From IMG/VR virus record IMGVR_UViG_3300012201_000004, positions 1 through 57,186 of that record: a stretch of DNA of 57,186 bases, one strand, 5' to 3'. Of this stretch, positions 3,734 to 57,186 are shown piece by piece. Within the stretch, counting starts at the first letter, position 1, and every line of letters starts with the position of its first letter. Source of the DNA: a virus. Both the position numbers and the translations under genes were made by a program. The notes below the pieces were generated by a model, which worked only from the letters and a program-made list of their open reading frames with translations, ran no database searches and was not told the origin of the DNA.

Positions 3734-3801
3734 ATGCTATACTCCTTGTTATGCAAAGCCTACTTCGTGGGAACTTGGGAGGCTTTGCCGCTTAGCTATG
3801 G

Positions 3802-3890
3802 CGGTCGGTATTTCCAGTACCGACCGTTTATCGTTTCCTCCACAATCTAGGAGGCGTCTACCAGCCAGCAATGAACCGACTGGCACCCGT
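3802..3890 (-). promoter_or_regulatory. Structured leader element, copy A
   Basis: Three hairpins in a row: CGGTCGGTA/TACCGACCG (3802-3826), CCTCC/GGAGG (3837-3854) and a CCAG/CTGG arm (about 3860-3884). The same series, with compensating stem changes and a conserved GATTGT loop on the minus strand, recurs at 4118-4195. Each copy lies upstream of a leftward gene, so a 5' regulatory RNA is plausible. Reading the other way, hairpin one plus T-rich DNA could act as a terminator. Confidence 0.5.
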
Positions 3891-5037: not shown

Positions 5038-5051
5038 CTAACCCCCTTGAC

Positions 5052-5116: not shown

Positions 5117-5555
5117 GTCAGGTACCCCCGCTTAAAAAGCAGGGGGCTTGTAAGTAGGGCCGACTTCTAGCCGTCTCTTGCAAGCCCTGGACCTGACCAG
5201 ACTTAGTTTGCACGTACAGCCTGGAACAATCAGTCTGGTGCAAGCTACCTTACCGGCGAAATAGGTACGTCAGAATACGAGGCCAGTTCTGACCTCTACG
5301 GCATATGGTTAAACAGAGAAACGGGGTCTACTCAGTGCTGTATGCGTTAAACCGTCGGATAAGTTTGTCGAGGCCACCTTTACTTTGTGCGGAAAAGGGC
5401 TGGTTGAGCCATATTCTCAACCAGAGAAAGAGCACCGCACATGCTTCTTTCTCCCCCGTAAGGGGATGGTATTGGCACAAGGCGCGCGCAGCAGAGTGTG
5501 CGCCTTGCATTCCTCCCCTGGCTGAAGCCGTAGGGCTTCCTGAAAGGAAAATCCT
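5117..5555. mobile_element. Noncoding block with IS605-like hairpins at both ends
   Basis: No coding frame with a ribosome site. At the left is the minus-oriented hairpin 5126-5145, exact reverse complement of 273-292. At the right is a plus-oriented hairpin 5516-5535, preceded by an 8-bp inverted repeat (5478-5485 with 5500-5507). The two tips point outward like the ends of a palindrome-associated or non-autonomous IS200/IS605 derivative, possibly still holding an omega-RNA scaffold. No transposase remnant was recognised. Confidence 0.4.
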
Positions 5556-6952: not shown

Positions 6953-8532
6953 AGAACGACACAAAAGCGGCCATCTTCGCCGCGCTCACCATCATCGGTG
7001 GCGTCGCGGTTGCCATGCTCAGCTTTTTCTACGGACGCTACATTCTCTACGGGCTTGGTGTGATCCTTGCCATTCTGCTAGTCAAGCTCGTAGTAGTGCC
7101 AATGCATGACATCCGCGCACAGACGGCGCTCCAACGGGCGGAGGCCAAGAAGATACGCGCTGAGGCCAAACGAATACACAGAGAGACGCGCATTTTGAGC
7201 GAGTTGCATGATCAGAATATGGAGAGCTTTCCATCAGTCTTCTTCCACAAGCCTGATACGAATGGCAATTTTGCGCTCCCGATCGGTCGTGATGGCCGTC
7301 TCGTTACGCACCTCTTGCCTGGGAATACGGCGACTGGCAATGGTGGCATCCCACCGAAGATGGTGCTGGACTATCTCCAACAGCAGAATACGGTGGAGGG
7401 GGAAATCTGGGAAGAAGACGAAGAAGAGGAGCAGCAGCAGATTGCCCGCCCGAAGATCCTGCTGTCTCAGCAGATTGAGCAGGGTCTCACATCCTGGGGG
7501 GAAGAGGAAAGTGTCTTTGGCTACCCGATCGATACCTATGAGCCGTTCTGTGTACCGCTCTTCAAGAAAGAGGGCAATTTCATCGATAGCCTGATGGTCA
7601 TTGGTATGCAGGGACAAGGGAAAAGCACAATAGGAACCTACTTTGCCGGGTTGACGGTCAATCATGGCGGTCACTTGCTCCTGATTGATCCTGACGCGCA
7701 AGAGGATCAGAGTTTGAGCAATCGCCTGGGTCCGCTCAAATCGTTCTTACTCATGGAGGTTGCCGATACTCCTGAGAAAGCGGAGCGCCTTTTGAGGTTG
7801 GCAGAAGACGAGATCGATACGCCGTCAGACTTTCCTCTGTTGCTCTTGGTCGATGAGTTCTCCATGATCATGCGGCACAAGCAACTCAAAGGCAAGTGGC
7901 AAGAAGTCGCTGATATGGTGGCAAATACCGTTGAGAACTATGCGACTCGCGGAAGAAAGCGTCGTCGTCGCGCTATCGTGTTTGGGCAAATTAGCAATGC
8001 CACACGGACAGGTGGAACGGAGCTGCGTGATAGTTGCGCCTATATCATTTTCAATACGCCACTGAGGAAAGCGGCGCTGGTCCTGCAAGACGCCAGCGAC
8101 GAGGACATAGAGACGTTAGCTCCTTCATTAACACCAGGAATGGCGATTGTCTCACCTGCGAAGAGTAGCGATACGTACATCATGCAGTTCACCTTCCCCG
8201 ATGATCAGGGATTGCAGATCATTGCAGAAGTACGTAGTGAGAGCGATGAACTTGAGGGTTCAAGTCACGTTCAAGATACGTTCACTGATGGGCTTAGTAC
8301 CGACACGGTTCACGAACGTTCAGAACTGTTGAACGTTGATGAACTGGCTCTACAGGCCGACGTTCGCAAAGTGCGCAATCTCTATGGGAAACAGAACCAG
8401 GACGAAATAATCTATATGCTGTGGGGTGCTCGTAAGGGTGGCACGAAACGGTATCAAGAAGCACGTACGCGCTATCAAGCTATAGCGATGTTTATTGAGA
8501 CGGGACAATGGCCGGATGTGAGGCAGGCATAG
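6949..8532 (+). CDS. FtsK/HerA-type membrane ATPase, 527 aa
   Basis: Two N-terminal transmembrane segments (about residues 10-55) are followed by a basic coiled linker and a RecA-like ATPase domain. Walker A is GMQGQGKST (Lys225) and Walker B is LLLVDEF (Asp302-Glu303). A GRKRRRRAI segment and an arginine-rich loop fit a DNA-pumping ring. The C-terminal 70 residues resemble a small winged helix. Such proteins move double-stranded DNA in conjugation or segregation. This one is shorter than FtsK and is not the phage terminase, which lies at 17202. A phage-plasmid or transfer module is the likeliest context. Confidence 0.75.
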   Translation: MKNDTKAAIFAALTIIGGVAVAMLSFFYGRYILYGLGVILAILLVKLVVVPMHDIRAQTALQRAEAKKIRAEAKRIHRETRILSELHDQNMESFPSVFFHKPDTNGNFALPIGRDGRLVTHLLPGNTATGNGGIPPKMVLDYLQQQNTVEGEIWEEDEEEEQQQIARPKILLSQQIEQGLTSWGEEESVFGYPIDTYEPFCVPLFKKEGNFIDSLMVIGMQGQGKSTIGTYFAGLTVNHGGHLLLIDPDAQEDQSLSNRLGPLKSFLLMEVADTPEKAERLLRLAEDEIDTPSDFPLLLLVDEFSMIMRHKQLKGKWQEVADMVANTVENYATRGRKRRRRAIVFGQISNATRTGGTELRDSCAYIIFNTPLRKAALVLQDASDEDIETLAPSLTPGMAIVSPAKSSDTYIMQFTFPDDQGLQIIAEVRSESDELEGSSHVQDTFTDGLSTDTVHERSELLNVDELALQADVRKVRNLYGKQNQDEIIYMLWGARKGGTKRYQEARTRYQAIAMFIETGQWPDVRQA

Positions 8533-25547: not shown

Positions 25548-25577
25548 TTGTGCTCTCGCTTCCCTTCATGCTATACT
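25548..25577 (+). promoter_or_regulatory. Promoter TTGTGC-18-TATACT (extended -10)
   Basis: TTGTGC at 25548-25553, an 18-bp spacer and TGC-TATACT (-10 at 25572-25577). The transcript would meet the terminator-like hairpin at 25600-25632 within about 25 bases, before the gene at 25654. Same architecture as at 51825 and 30631. Confidence 0.6.
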
Positions 25578-48591: not shown

Positions 48592-49917
48592 ATGCCAAGT
48601 TACACCGCAATGGATAGCTCCCTACTAAAATCGCAAGTCGTAAAAGCGTATAGCAGTACAGGTGTCTATCTGGGCGTCATTGCCGATGCACCCTACCTCA
48701 CCGGCTTTACAGAGGCAGTCAACGCGGCAACTACCAGTATCACAGTAAATCTCCCGCGCCACATTGATGCCTATGACGGCGCGAACATGCCTGGAACGCA
48801 AAATACGGTGGTGCTCGGGAACGTCTGGAAGTGGTATCTCTACGGCCCTGGACTCCCGACGAATGGATTGATGAGGTATCAGGGCGTCGTAGATACCATA
48901 CGTCCCCACATCGATGAGGGCGGAGGCGAATCGGTGGATGTGACGATCACGCCCTATTCACAGATCCTCGGAGATCAGGCCGTCATCGGGCCGCTGAATT
49001 ACGGGACGGCGGGCAATCCACTGACGTATGTCGATAGCGGGACGATGTTCTCAGGCGTGCTCTCCGCGACCGATCCCGATACCGGTTCGCCCTACATGTA
49101 TCCCTTCACACTGGACGGTACCAATCCGGCAACGGTCGGCATTGCGGTACAATCGTCTTTCCAAAATCAGACGCTCCTCTCAGAACTCACGACGATCTTA
49201 CTGCTCTCACCTGCCAACTACTTTTTCCGGATGAATGATACGGCACTCACGATCACCTACAACCAGTTTCCAGTCGCGCCCAATCACTTTCTGAAGTTGG
49301 GGCAGCACATTACATCGATGGAGTACGCCGTAGACAATGTGCCACGCAAGAATATGATCCTTGTGCAAGGAAAAGGCGTCTCTGCAAAGGCGGTGGGAGC
49401 CAGCGTAGCCACCATCGGGAAACGTTCCTACTTCAAGAGCGACAACCGCATCACCGATGTGATCACCGCGCAAACGCTCGCCAATGGTCTGCTCGCCTTT
49501 TACGATCGCTCGCAGATCAGGACAAAGATCAAGATCCCCGATTATCGCGGAGATGCACGCCCCGGCATTGGCTACGACATCGAGTCATTCAAGGTCGGGC
49601 AAACCGTGACGATCCTGGACACCAAAGCGCCGCCAATTGCGACAGGTACCTCTTCGCCACCGTGGGGTCAGTTTACCTGGGGCTCGTCGAAGTGGGGTAT
49701 TAGCCCATCTACGCCGTCATTGTGGGGAACATTCACCTGGGGTCAGTCGAATTGGGGTTTCGGCGTCGGCGCGATCTTCAATGTGACCGTACCGATTGTG
49801 GCTATCAACTATTTGTATCATTCGGTTGAATTAGAAATCGGCTTTAGGCAGCCCTCTACAAATCGTTCTGTGTTCAATTTAGAGTCGAAATTCTCGGATG
49901 CGACACTTGTTTCGTAA
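48592..49917 (+). CDS. Tail tip protein (Gp37/Tal-like), 441 aa
   Basis: Resembles the siphovirus Gp37-like baseplate family: ITVNLPRHIDAYDGANM, VDTIRPHIDEGGGESVDVTITPYSQILG, and PRKNMILVQGKG. Near the C-terminus WGQFTWGSSKWG and WGTFTWGQSNWGFG are tandem Trp-Gly motifs, perhaps for carbohydrate contact. Likely hub of host adsorption. Confidence 0.7.
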   Translation: MPSYTAMDSSLLKSQVVKAYSSTGVYLGVIADAPYLTGFTEAVNAATTSITVNLPRHIDAYDGANMPGTQNTVVLGNVWKWYLYGPGLPTNGLMRYQGVVDTIRPHIDEGGGESVDVTITPYSQILGDQAVIGPLNYGTAGNPLTYVDSGTMFSGVLSATDPDTGSPYMYPFTLDGTNPATVGIAVQSSFQNQTLLSELTTILLLSPANYFFRMNDTALTITYNQFPVAPNHFLKLGQHITSMEYAVDNVPRKNMILVQGKGVSAKAVGASVATIGKRSYFKSDNRITDVITAQTLANGLLAFYDRSQIRTKIKIPDYRGDARPGIGYDIESFKVGQTVTILDTKAPPIATGTSSPPWGQFTWGSSKWGISPSTPSLWGTFTWGQSNWGFGVGAIFNVTVPIVAINYLYHSVELEIGFRQPSTNRSVFNLESKFSDATLVS

Positions 49918-51824: not shown

Positions 51825-51853
51825 TCGTCAAAAACCCGTCTACATGCTATACT
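51825..51853 (+). promoter_or_regulatory. Endolysin promoter TCGTCA-17-TATACT (extended -10)
   Basis: TCGTCA (51825-51830) and TGC-TATACT (51848-51853), spaced 17. The hairpin-T-run at 51864-51892 follows, then the AAAGGA of the endolysin. Confidence 0.55.
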
Positions 51854-51863
51854 CAGAGTGAGA

Positions 51864-51892
51864 GCCTGCGCGCCATGCGTCGGGCGTTTTTT
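51864..51892 (+). terminator. Attenuator-like terminator hairpin before endolysin
   Basis: GCCTG-CGC (51864-51871) pairs with GCG-(T)-CGGGC (51877-51885), then G and six T. It lies only about 10 bases into the transcript and before the endolysin ribosome site. Confidence 0.65.
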
Positions 51893-51914
51893 CTTGTTCA
51901 AAAGGACTCATTGT

Positions 51915-53588
51915 ATGGTTGATTATCCACAGGCAATCACCTATCTTGTCGATGCAAGCCGCGTCTTCGTGGGGGAAAATGATCACGCGGCGTTGGTCAT
52001 TCATGGCACGGGCGGGAGCGCCACGCAAACGGCACAACAGTTAGGTGATTACTTCCGTACCACGCCTCTAGAGACGTCATCGCATTATGGCGTAGATCGC
52101 GCCGGTATCATCTGTCAGTACGTTCTTGAGCGTGACGGGGCTGGTGGAAACTGCTGTACAGAAGCAGGACATGACACCTTCTGGGATCAGTTCGGCGGGG
52201 ATAATCTCAATAAACATACGCTCTCTATCGAATGCGAGAACGATACTGAGAACAGTCTCACGCTCTCATCTGCACAGCAACATGCACTTTTCCCACTCAT
52301 AGCGCATCTCTGCAAAAAATATAGTATTGCGCCCGACCACATCAAGTCGCATGCCTCTATTGCGCCTGTGACACGTGCGAGTTGTCCAGGAAAGAACTTC
52401 CCCTGGTCGGCATTGTGGGACTATTTGAAAGGAGTCACCAGTATGACAGAAGTATGCAGCGTGACCGACACGTCACAATTTTCCCCGAATAAATCGGTTG
52501 AAAAATGTGGATTTTTCTCAATCGCACTCTTGAAATATGCCGGACATCCTGGGCAAGCACCATCAGGCAATGCAAGCGAGATCACGGCATGGGCGGATAG
52601 TGAATACGTGAAGTACGATGGGCAAGATACGAGCAGTAACAGTTCAGGAATGACCGTCCCGATGGAGTATCAAGTCATCCAGGATGCAGGCTTGCACTAC
52701 CAGGGAATAGGCGCGACGGAAACTGGTTTCCACGTCGATCATCTCACCGCCGACTACATACGCGCGTGGCTTAAGGACGGCTATCCCGTCCTGCTGGCAG
52801 TTGCAGAGGATGCCGTCTTCGACGAAGATCTGGGAGCAAAACCATACAGTTGGAATACGGCAGGCTTGTACCACATCATCACCGCAACGGGCTATGATGG
52901 GAAGGTGCTGCTCTGTCATGATACCGCATCCATCGGAACTGATGGAGTGAGGCCAGGACCGCGCCGTTACGACGCACAGAGACTACAGAGCGGGCTTATC
53001 TCAGCTACGGCGGTTGTACTCCCGTGGCTCTCTCGTCCCGCCTCAGATTTCGATCCTACGCAACCTACTCCTCACACACAATCAGCACTACTAGGAGAGA
53101 CACCTATGGATATCAAAGACCCCGACTTTGCAGCAAGGTTCTTTCAGCAAGTCACTGATGGTGACTGGTACTGTCCTACGAAGCGACAGCATATCATTGG
53201 TGACATCCTCAAGTTCTACCGCAAGACCTGGGGTGCGGCGCGTTTACCGCTCTCCGCAGAGATGACGGACGTTGCTGGTATCAAGTGGCAGCATTGTGAA
53301 GCAGGCGTGATCATCTTTGACCCGTCTCACGTGCATGACCATCCCGCAGGCGATCCGTGCTACCTGGCACGGCTAGACGATCCGATGGTGCAACGGCTCT
53401 TCGCCAAACAGCAGATCGTCATCACAGGCAACGCAGGCACGGCGCTTGATGCACTGTTGGCAAACATCACCTTGCAGAAGCAAACATTGGAGCAAGTAGC
53501 AGGCGACCTGACGGCGTTGGAACATGGAACGGATGCAGCGGCGGTGACGGTGGCGAACATAAAAACGGCGCTCGCGGCGGGGAAATGA
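51915..53588 (+). CDS. Modular endolysin: amidase, C39-like peptidase, wall-binding tail, 557 aa
   Basis: ATG at 51915 with AAAGGA. Module 1 (1-175) is a PGRP/amidase_2 domain with zinc ligands His30 (VIHGT), His146 (SHASI) and Cys157 (SCPGK). Module 2 (177-395) resembles a papain-like C39 peptidase: Cys198 (EKCGFFS), His320 (YHIITATG) and a following Asp (CHDTA). Module 3 (398-557) may bind cell wall and ends in a coiled coil. It would cut amide and peptide bonds in murein. Strong internal ribosome sites precede ATG 52443 and ATG 53106, exactly at module borders. Confidence 0.85.
   Translation: MVDYPQAITYLVDASRVFVGENDHAALVIHGTGGSATQTAQQLGDYFRTTPLETSSHYGVDRAGIICQYVLERDGAGGNCCTEAGHDTFWDQFGGDNLNKHTLSIECENDTENSLTLSSAQQHALFPLIAHLCKKYSIAPDHIKSHASIAPVTRASCPGKNFPWSALWDYLKGVTSMTEVCSVTDTSQFSPNKSVEKCGFFSIALLKYAGHPGQAPSGNASEITAWADSEYVKYDGQDTSSNSSGMTVPMEYQVIQDAGLHYQGIGATETGFHVDHLTADYIRAWLKDGYPVLLAVAEDAVFDEDLGAKPYSWNTAGLYHIITATGYDGKVLLCHDTASIGTDGVRPGPRRYDAQRLQSGLISATAVVLPWLSRPASDFDPTQPTPHTQSALLGETPMDIKDPDFAARFFQQVTDGDWYCPTKRQHIIGDILKFYRKTWGAARLPLSAEMTDVAGIKWQHCEAGVIIFDPSHVHDHPAGDPCYLARLDDPMVQRLFAKQQIVITGNAGTALDALLANITLQKQTLEQVAGDLTALEHGTDAAAVTVANIKTALAAGK
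52428..52445 (+). promoter_or_regulatory. Internal ribosome site, endolysin module 2
   Basis: AAAGGAG at 52428-52434 lies 8 bases before the in-frame ATG at 52443 that opens the peptidase module. Free initiation here would yield a 381-aa peptidase plus wall-binding protein. Confidence 0.65.
53093..53108 (+). promoter_or_regulatory. Internal ribosome site, endolysin module 3
   Basis: AGGAGA at 53093-53098 lies 7 bases before the in-frame ATG at 53106. It would give a 160-aa wall-binding/coiled protein able to multimerise with the full-length lysin. Confidence 0.6.
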
Positions 53589-53675: not shown

Positions 53676-54023
53676 ATGGCCTTACCAACCATCCCAGGCG
53701 TACTCATCACCGCTGGCTCTGTCGTGATCGCCTATCTCGCCAGTTGGCTCAAATCAGACGGTCTACCACAGCGAACCAATGTCGTGATCGGGTGGATAGC
53801 GGTGATCATCCTCGCCGCTCTCACGCTCTGGCTCACGGGGAACTTCACCAGCAATATTGCTCAGGACCTCGTGTTGGTTGCAGTATCGGCGGGCGCGCTC
53901 TCGCAGCAACTCATCTCGCTGCTACAGACGGCACAGAAGACACCCTCGCCACTGTTGCCCCAGGTGCAACCTGCACAGGCGTACAAGCCTCTTGCAGCGG
54001 GGAGTGATCCGGCGGCAAAGTAG
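53676..54023 (+). CDS. Putative holin, 115 aa
   Basis: Hydrophobic segments at about 5-25, 37-54 and 60-82, with a Pro/Ala/Gln-rich hydrophilic C-terminus. It lies directly behind the endolysin, the usual place. It would permeabilise the membrane to time lysis. A ribosome site AGAAAGAG precedes the start. Confidence 0.65.
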   Translation: MALPTIPGVLITAGSVVIAYLASWLKSDGLPQRTNVVIGWIAVIILAALTLWLTGNFTSNIAQDLVLVAVSAGALSQQLISLLQTAQKTPSPLLPQVQPAQAYKPLAAGSDPAAK

Positions 54024-54049
54024 ACAGGAGCGGCGCGTTCTGCTATACT
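54021..54049 (+). promoter_or_regulatory. Promoter TAGACA-17-TATACT of small RNA
   Basis: TAGACA (54021-54026), 17-bp spacer and extended TGC-TATACT (54044-54049), overlapping the holin stop codon region. It points at the structured RNA that follows; no gene lies downstream on this strand. Confidence 0.7.
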
Positions 54050-54055
54050 AGCGGC

Positions 54056-54134
54056 GCAGACCAGCAGAGAGCCAGGGTCAGCACGGACAATACCATCACA
54101 TGTAGGGGTTTCACCGTGCCAGCCCTGGCTTTTT
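54056..54134 (+). ncRNA. Standalone small RNA with intrinsic terminator
   Basis: A roughly 80-base transcript is bounded by the promoter at 54021-54049 and a hairpin-T5 end. The long hairpin pairs AGCCAGGG (54070-54077) with CCCTGGCT (54123-54130) and GCACGG (54081-54086) with CCGTGC (54114-54119), with a 3x3 internal loop and a 27-base apical loop (54087-54113) containing TGTAGGGGTTT. No gene follows on this strand, so it is not a leader. Confidence 0.65.
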
Positions 54135-54141
54135 GCACATA

Positions 54142-54170
54142 AGACGGACCTGCCCCCACCAGGTCCGTCT
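54142..54170. repeat. 11-bp palindrome ACGGACCTG..CAGGTCCGT, copy 1
   Basis: AGACGGACCTG (54142-54152) and CAGGTCCGTCT (54160-54170) around a 7-base loop, without T-run. The same half-site occurs at 55104-55131. The two copies bracket the leftward gene 54221-55000. Confidence 0.7.
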
Positions 54171-54220
54171 CAATCCTCTCCTCTCTTTCTTATTCCATTT
54201 CTTGCGACGTAGAACGCTTG

Positions 54221-55000
54221 TCATACAGCCGATGCAGGCACGGGTGCTTCCCTCAACACTTCCAGAAGCTTCTCCGCCTGCCGCTTTGTGGCAGCGTCCC
54301 AGGCAGAGTCCCGGGCAGCGGCCCTGTCAGCGGGGCTGGCAGCGTCCCTGTCAGCGGCCCTGGAAGCGGTCCGGGCAGCGGCACTGGCCGCGTACCAGGC
54401 AGCGTCCCAAGCAGCGTCCCTGGAAGCGACACTGGAAGCGACACTGGAAGCGTCCCTGGCAGCAGCCCAGGCAGCGTCCCTGGCAGGGCCGCTTCCAGCG
54501 CCATTGGCAGCGTCACTGGCAGCGTCCCAGGCAGCGGCCCACTCTGAATCCGCCACCTCCCCACCATGCAGCAGCCGCTGATAGAGGCCCGCAACCAGCA
54601 CGATGACTTCTTTGCCTGCCTCGTCGGCAAAACGAATCACTCCATCTTGCGCGTCGATCAGGAGCCATACCAAGAAGCGCGGGATGATCCTCGAGAGATC
54701 AGCGCCAACCGGGATCGCCTCAAGGAAGGCGAGCGGGAACGCCTGGTAGTAGTCAATCGGCGTTTTCTCGAAGAGATGATCTTCGAGATATGCCACCTGG
54801 CGCGGGATGCCGAGCTCCGGCTCGAATTGCTCATGGATATTCTCGCCATCGGGGATCTCCAGAGTGCATGCGACACCGCATCCGGTACGCGTCCGGGGAT
54901 CCCAATAATGGCCGCGCACCAGCTCATCTGCGGCCATATGCGCCTTCATCTTTTCGATGTAAAAATCTTTGGTGGCTTGCTTGCCGTGAAATGCTTTCAT
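54221..55000 (-). CDS. Alanine-rich repeat protein, 259 aa
   Basis: Residues 1-150 are a globular domain (GHYWDPRTRTGCGVACTLE; a DQRxA-like region is absent). Residues about 152-245 are a repeat tract in which Trp, Ala, Ser, Arg and Asp recur (WAAAWDAASDAAN...), encoded by 12- to 24-bp repeats of GCGTCCC-type DNA. The tract should be a long amphipathic helix or coiled stack. AAAGGGAAAG before ATG. I know this kind of Ala-repeat tail from phage and host proteins but no function. Confidence 0.65.
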   Translation of the reverse strand: MKAFHGKQATKDFYIEKMKAHMAADELVRGHYWDPRTRTGCGVACTLEIPDGENIHEQFEPELGIPRQVAYLEDHLFEKTPIDYYQAFPLAFLEAIPVGADLSRIIPRFLVWLLIDAQDGVIRFADEAGKEVIVLVAGLYQRLLHGGEVADSEWAAAWDAASDAANGAGSGPARDAAWAAARDASSVASSVASRDAAWDAAWYAASAAARTASRAADRDAASPADRAAARDSAWDAATKRQAEKLLEVLREAPVPASAV

Positions 55001-55103: not shown

Positions 55104-55131
55104 AACGGACCTGATGGGGATCAGGTCCGTT
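55104..55131. repeat. 11-bp palindrome ACGGACCTG..CAGGTCCGT, copy 2
   Basis: AACGGACCTGA (55104-55114) and TCAGGTCCGTT (55121-55131), 6-base loop. It shares the ACGGACCTG half-site with copy 1. Either a second terminator stem or an operator. Confidence 0.7.
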
Positions 55132-56845: not shown

Positions 56846-57186
56846 TTAACCGAACAGACGATTGTTCCGGCTGTTCTCAGATGCCACGATGGGTTGCATG
56901 ACGGCAGCCCTTGAGATGTTGATGGCGGCGTTGCGATCAGCGTTATCGGTGTAGCCGCAGTTCTGACAGACAAAGGAGGCTTGACTCTTGCGATTGGCTT
57001 TCTCGCAATGCTTGCAGACCTGGCAGGTCCGCGAGGTATTGCGTGGGTCTACCGTATGCAAGAGAACGCCAGCAAGAGTCGCCTTGTACTGAAGAAAGAA
57101 ACGAAGTTGCCAGAAGGACCAGGAGGAATGGCGAGCACGCTGAGACTTTCTTAACCGTGCCTCCGTACGCGTACGGATGTGCCTTA
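56846..57186 (-). CDS. tnpB: TnpB (IS200/IS605 OrfB) C-terminal part, partial
   Basis: The gene enters from beyond the right edge. In frame: FWQLRFFLQYKATLAGVLLH, VDPRNTSRTCQVCKHC, CQNCGYTDNADRNAAINI. The last gives the RuvC-III Asp region (DRNAA) and the two CxxC pairs of the zinc ribbon. TnpB is an RNA-guided DNA nuclease linked to transposon maintenance. The reading frame is intact as far as visible. Confidence 0.85.
   Translation of the reverse strand, partial: RHIRTRTEARLRKSQRARHSSWSFWQLRFFLQYKATLAGVLLHTVDPRNTSRTCQVCKHCEKANRKSQASFVCQNCGYTDNADRNAAINISRAAVMQPIVASENSRNNRLFG

Follow-up and report, generated by a model that had tools for sequence, protein, structure and literature searches.

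A probable lysis-operon terminator with a candidate nested promoter in an uncultivated phage

Results

The window analysed here, the whole of an IMG/VR virus record of 57,186 bases, carries terminase, portal and capsid-type genes; no cultured relative of this phage group was found in the searches made. Its lysis region, at the right end, contains an endolysin gene followed by a gene for a hydrophobic protein and ends at a boundary with convergent, leftward genes (Table 1). The endolysin was recognized by an amidase domain match (PF01510, E 1.2e-18, obtained with the longer ORF 51858-53588) and by matches of the product to PHROG endolysin families. For the 115-aa holin-like protein there was no Pfam match above the cut-off, no PHROG match and no relative in viral_contigs; a weak local match (E 7e-4, with one internal stop) was seen in a related genome, G003. 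Neither the N-terminal part of the 259-aa convergent gene product nor the tail-region protein encoded at 48592-49914 yielded any relatives. A 12-nt tandem array (54265-54577, 17 registers listed) lies within the 3' part of this convergent gene, in a stretch with DNA-level matches to hypothetical proteins from unrelated phages. Elsewhere in the window, a HEARO RNA (RF02033, 118 bits) lies at 5117-5383 on the plus strand, closely preceded by promoter-like sites of the extended -10 kind at 5047 (+) and 5116 (-). A minus-strand ORF at the window end (56846-57061) carries CxxC motifs and may encode the C-terminus of a transposon protein of the TnpB type.

Table 1. Features of the lysis boundary and related promoter-terminator units
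Feature	Position	Strand	Basis or remark
TGCTATACT unit	25569..25577	+	hairpin and T7 48 nt on; T-run from 25626/25627
TGCTATACT extended -10 unit	51845..51853	+	hairpin and T6 33 nt on, just before 51887
Endolysin (N-acetylmuramoyl-L-alanine amidase, PF01510), extra C-terminal sequence	51918..53588 (start taken at 51918)	+	Pfam, PHROG
115-aa hydrophobic protein, after endolysin gene	53676..54023	+	holin-like by position and composition only
Promoter-like site: TAGACA 54021-54026, 17-nt spacer, TATACT 54044-54049	54021..54049	+	motif
Predicted short RNA, ~79 nt	54056..54134	+	start inferred 7 nt past -10; end at T5
Long hairpin ending in T5, candidate intrinsic terminator	54066..54134	+	fold
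Second hairpin, 11-bp stem, GGACCTG...CAGGTCC core	54142..54171		no T-run on either strand
Convergent gene, 259 aa, function not assigned, phrog_3416	54221..55000	-	ORF, PHROG

Directly behind the holin-like gene, the DNA can form a long hairpin. The segment 54054-54134 folds at -37 kcal/mol against a shuffled mean of -20.6 (sd 2.8; z -5.8), and none of 200 shuffles folded as well. The long hairpin described in a sequence-only reading of this DNA is thus borne out in its stability, its stem however being interrupted: 13 pairs are followed by a 2x2 CA/CA internal loop, 6 further pairs and a 27-nt apical loop. This loop (54087-54113), predicted to be largely unpaired, contains the TAGGGGT that the same reading had located there. 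T5 directly abuts the hairpin base, and the outer five of the 13 pairs are made with the U-run. A stable GC-rich hairpin with an immediate T-run at an operon end has the make-up of an intrinsic terminator, a function that the sequence-only reading did not mention and that would be equally expected here. Intrinsic terminators usually have a short loop of 3-8 nt, although this is not strictly required; the 27-nt loop is on the long side for a simple terminator, and a consensus terminator scan with loops of 3-8 leaves the hairpin out. Comparable or stronger folds occur in other 75-nt segments of the window, at 861 (-52), 55101, 5456, 54331 and 44036. Perfect or near-perfect hairpins of ~22 bp (877-929) and ~17 bp (398-438) are also present, without a long T-run. 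The GGACCTG...CAGGTCC stem of the second hairpin recurs at 55107-55128 with another loop (0 expected, 100 shuffles), so that each of two consecutive leftward genes has one such hairpin downstream. Rfam gave nothing at gathering score in the hairpin region, the one sub-threshold match being mir-1954 on the minus strand (20.3 bits, cut-off 99).

A promoter motif of the form TAGACA-17-TATACT is present before the hairpin, as had been noted from the sequence, and it is of the extended -10 type, with TG at 54041-54042 preceding TATACT. Its -35 hexamer overlaps the stop codon of the holin-like gene (54021-54023). Only three sites matching the consensus in at least 10 of 12 positions with TG occur on both strands of the window, against 0.475 expected (sd 0.67; 40 first-order Markov resamplings), and this site is among them. 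At the looser level of at least 9 of 12, the segment 45000-57186 holds 19 sites against 9.0 expected. Transcription from this promoter up to the T5 would give the short RNA of Table 1, in agreement with the roughly 80 bases proposed previously. No plausible plus-strand gene follows 54134, the next gene being the convergent one, as had also been stated. The stretch 54050-54134 is itself without a plausible ORF, containing only an ATG-TAG and an 8-codon GTG frame that starts within the stem.

The word TGNTATACT is found seven times in the window against 1.06 expected, a count reached by none of 100 shuffles, and it tops 60 letter permutations of its hexamer (mean 1.05), whereas TGNTATAAT does not occur in the window at all. 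Together, enrichment, rank and this absence suggest that TGNTATACT is likely a specific promoter word. According to a simple greedy ORF map, four of the seven sites are inside ORFs and three are intergenic; the site at 3735, counted with the former, is perhaps within a false ORF. These data bear on a terminator-only alternative, with the hairpin closing the lysis operon and the promoter-like hexamers before it being fortuitous. The frequency of looser consensus matches and the abundance of strong hairpins in the window speak for such a reading, but the exact TGNTATACT word is enriched and the 54021 site ranks among the three best with TG; we consider this reading unlikely. The promoter nested before the hairpin is probably active, judging from its motif.

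Each of the three intergenic TGNTATACT sites is followed by a hairpin and a run of T5 or longer 33-80 nt downstream, the T5 of the 54041 unit lying at 80 nt, against a background of 4.7% of intergenic plus-strand positions with a terminator 20-100 nt downstream. When the 54041 site is left out, both remaining sites still have a terminator (~0.002 by simple multiplication, for a pattern seen after the fact). This suggests that a promoter followed by a terminator is a recurrent arrangement in this phage. One unit, at 25569, precedes a head-region gene of 73 aa (25654), and another, at 51845, lies directly upstream of the endolysin gene. At 3735-3835 (+), TGCTATACT is followed by two hairpins, the second one before T3 only, perhaps a fourth unit.

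Such units could form a set of attenuated promoters, closed by terminators and opened by a phage antiterminator as in lambda pR'-tR'. The 25569 unit would then gate the head-region gene and the 51845 unit the lysis genes; what the 54041 unit gates would be transcription antisense to the convergent operon, unless it yields a terminated RNA only. The terminators behind all three intergenic sites and the position of one unit immediately before the endolysin gene are as expected from this model, and the 51845 and 25569 units both show a layout of the pR'-tR' type. At 54041, however, the terminator is present and the plus-strand gene behind it is absent. Moreover, the pattern was spotted after the fact, no antiterminator gene was identified among the subset of proteins scanned, and none of seven distinct TGNTATACT sites examined in two relatives (five of the ten sites of G003 and two of the three of G001) has such a terminator. 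We therefore give the model little credence as an account of this locus. Improbable as well is a more elaborate version, in which the head and lysis genes of this lineage are governed by TGCTATACT promoters, each shut off by a terminator 33-80 nt on until an antiterminator opens it. The post-lysis copy would in this version have lost its gene and turned into a stand-alone hairpin RNA with an effect in trans or on the convergent operon.

Relatives were sought for both the hairpin and its surroundings. L059 (11 kb) represents nearly the same virus and ends short of the lysis end. G003 (122 kb) has a terminase 60% identical and shares terminase, portal and capsid-region genes with the window; no amidase match was found in it, and it therefore provides no control for the lysis end. 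The sole relative found with this endolysin (66-67% identical) is G001/L007 (67.6 kb); against genome_contigs, the endolysin alignment found none in 76 stretches. In L007, an extended -10 site, TGATATACT, is located at 8127 between the lysis region and convergent genes, and is followed by an ORF of 77 aa that has a good ribosome site and then by two terminator-like hairpins. A single TGATATACT site in 12.5 kb does not exceed chance, 46 of 200 shuffles also containing one. Both phages with this endolysin thus have a promoter-like site at the lysis/convergent boundary, and the transcribed stretch differs. Searches for the hairpin itself gave four stretches in viral_contigs with the exact 17-base 5' stem arm, none with the hairpin, and 11 stretches with a two-arm pattern of variable loop, all lacking a T-run behind it. 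Against phages, a distant blastn search with 155 bases returned four weak matches (E at least 0.5), of which the one inspected was within a coding gene, and no hairpin homologues were found in plasmids.

The L007 arrangement raises the prospect that a post-lysis promoter once drove a small gene in our phage too, leaving behind the promoter and terminator of a moron. The promoter-like site, small ORF and terminator-like hairpins at the same post-lysis place in L007 speak for such an origin. A moron unit consists of a promoter, a small gene and a terminator, though, and 54050-54134 contains no coding remnant; nor was similarity seen by eye between the post-lysis stretches of L007 and the window. 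We regard this origin as very unlikely.

The sequence-only reading had further likened the TAGGGGT of the loop to a ribosome site or a pairing seed; as a seed, it would make the transcript a trans-acting small RNA that uses its 27-nt loop to bind an mRNA of the phage or of the host. The loop, predicted to be largely unpaired, and a size and layout like those of lambda OOP (77 nt) and P22 sar (68/69 nt), as tabulated in PMC12197685, are in keeping with this idea. Over 85 start regions of the window, however, the best duplex of the loop reached -22.9 kcal/mol, and shuffled loops (mean -20.2) did as well in 13% of 200 cases. With shuffled loops performing alike, an antisense seed in the loop is ruled out at this level. 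Since no homologue was found either, a trans-acting role seems very improbable to us. The word TAGGGG is common in the window (nine on the plus strand, two on the minus strand), and its occurrence in the small post-promoter hairpin of L007 was judged to be chance given these 11 copies.

Pairing in cis is another option, in which the RNA would base-pair with the leftward mRNA of the convergent gene where this reads through at its 3' end. Lambda OOP acts on cII by cis-antisense, and the convergent layout would allow it here. The minus-strand hairpin 54171-54142 lacks a T-run, so leftward transcripts could plausibly continue into 54134-54056. The RNA is nevertheless ~87 nt past the stop of the leftward gene and has no coding overlap with it, which makes this explanation very doubtful.

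Discussion

The reading that we favour as the simplest, and to which we assign about an even chance, is that a terminator closes the lysis operon at the convergent gene boundary and that a promoter nested before it would give a terminated RNA of ~79 nt. The promoter motif, the hairpin, the T-run and the convergent layout can be read directly from the DNA. The hairpin would end the rightward lysis operon by intrinsic termination, halting RNA polymerase ahead of the convergent leftward genes, the first of which runs from 55000 to 54221; that this termination is efficient we infer. An extended -10 promoter of a type used elsewhere by the phage would sit just before this terminator, overlapping the stop codon with which the lysis-region genes end. 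If it fires, as we infer, its transcripts would end at the same terminator and yield a short, presumably stable RNA that is nearly all hairpin. The proposal of a phage small RNA consequently survives in part: a promoter-plus-terminator unit is well supported by the sequence, whereas its regulatory part is not, the hairpin being equally expected as the terminator of the lysis operon. A regulatory role of the RNA is possible; against a conserved one stand the lack of hairpin homologues in the searches made, the small gene that follows the post-lysis promoter-like site of L007, the missing terminators behind the seven TGNTATACT sites examined in relatives and the chance-level targets of the loop. 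Should the RNA have a role beyond termination, its layout would be that of 3'-end-derived small RNAs transcribed from a promoter of their own. As it stands, the locus is an ordinary operon end containing a good promoter.

Should the RNA be made and stable, it would be an additional small RNA, contributed by a phage represented by its sequence alone. Promoters with immediate terminators before a head-region gene and before the lysis genes would, in turn, point to antitermination control of late genes.

Short phage RNAs of such size and layout are already known, and by analogy 54056-54134 would be a further example. The OOP and sar entries in the table of PMC12197685 are alike in short length, and OOP likewise has its own promoter, pO. 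They pair with the mRNA of a phage gene (cII and ant, respectively), whereas the 54056-54134 RNA overlaps no opposite-strand coding sequence. StxS, which according to PMC7873438 derives from the region between the late promoter pR' and the terminator tR', is similar in that a phage promoter with an immediate terminator gives a short RNA. There its unit is upstream of late genes and opened by antitermination, while the 54041 unit is at a 3' end with no gene behind it, so that the 51845 unit is the closer analogue of StxS. Compared with an ordinary convergent-operon terminator, 54066-54134 shares the GC-rich stem, the T5 and the position, and differs by its 27-nt apical loop and by the promoter nested before it. 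Bacterial small RNAs of the DapZ type, as outlined in PMC9438474, come from an mRNA 3' end with their own promoter at the stop codon of the preceding gene and share its terminator. At the motif level this 3'-end layout is found at our locus, with a -35 that overlaps the stop codon and a terminator common to both transcripts.
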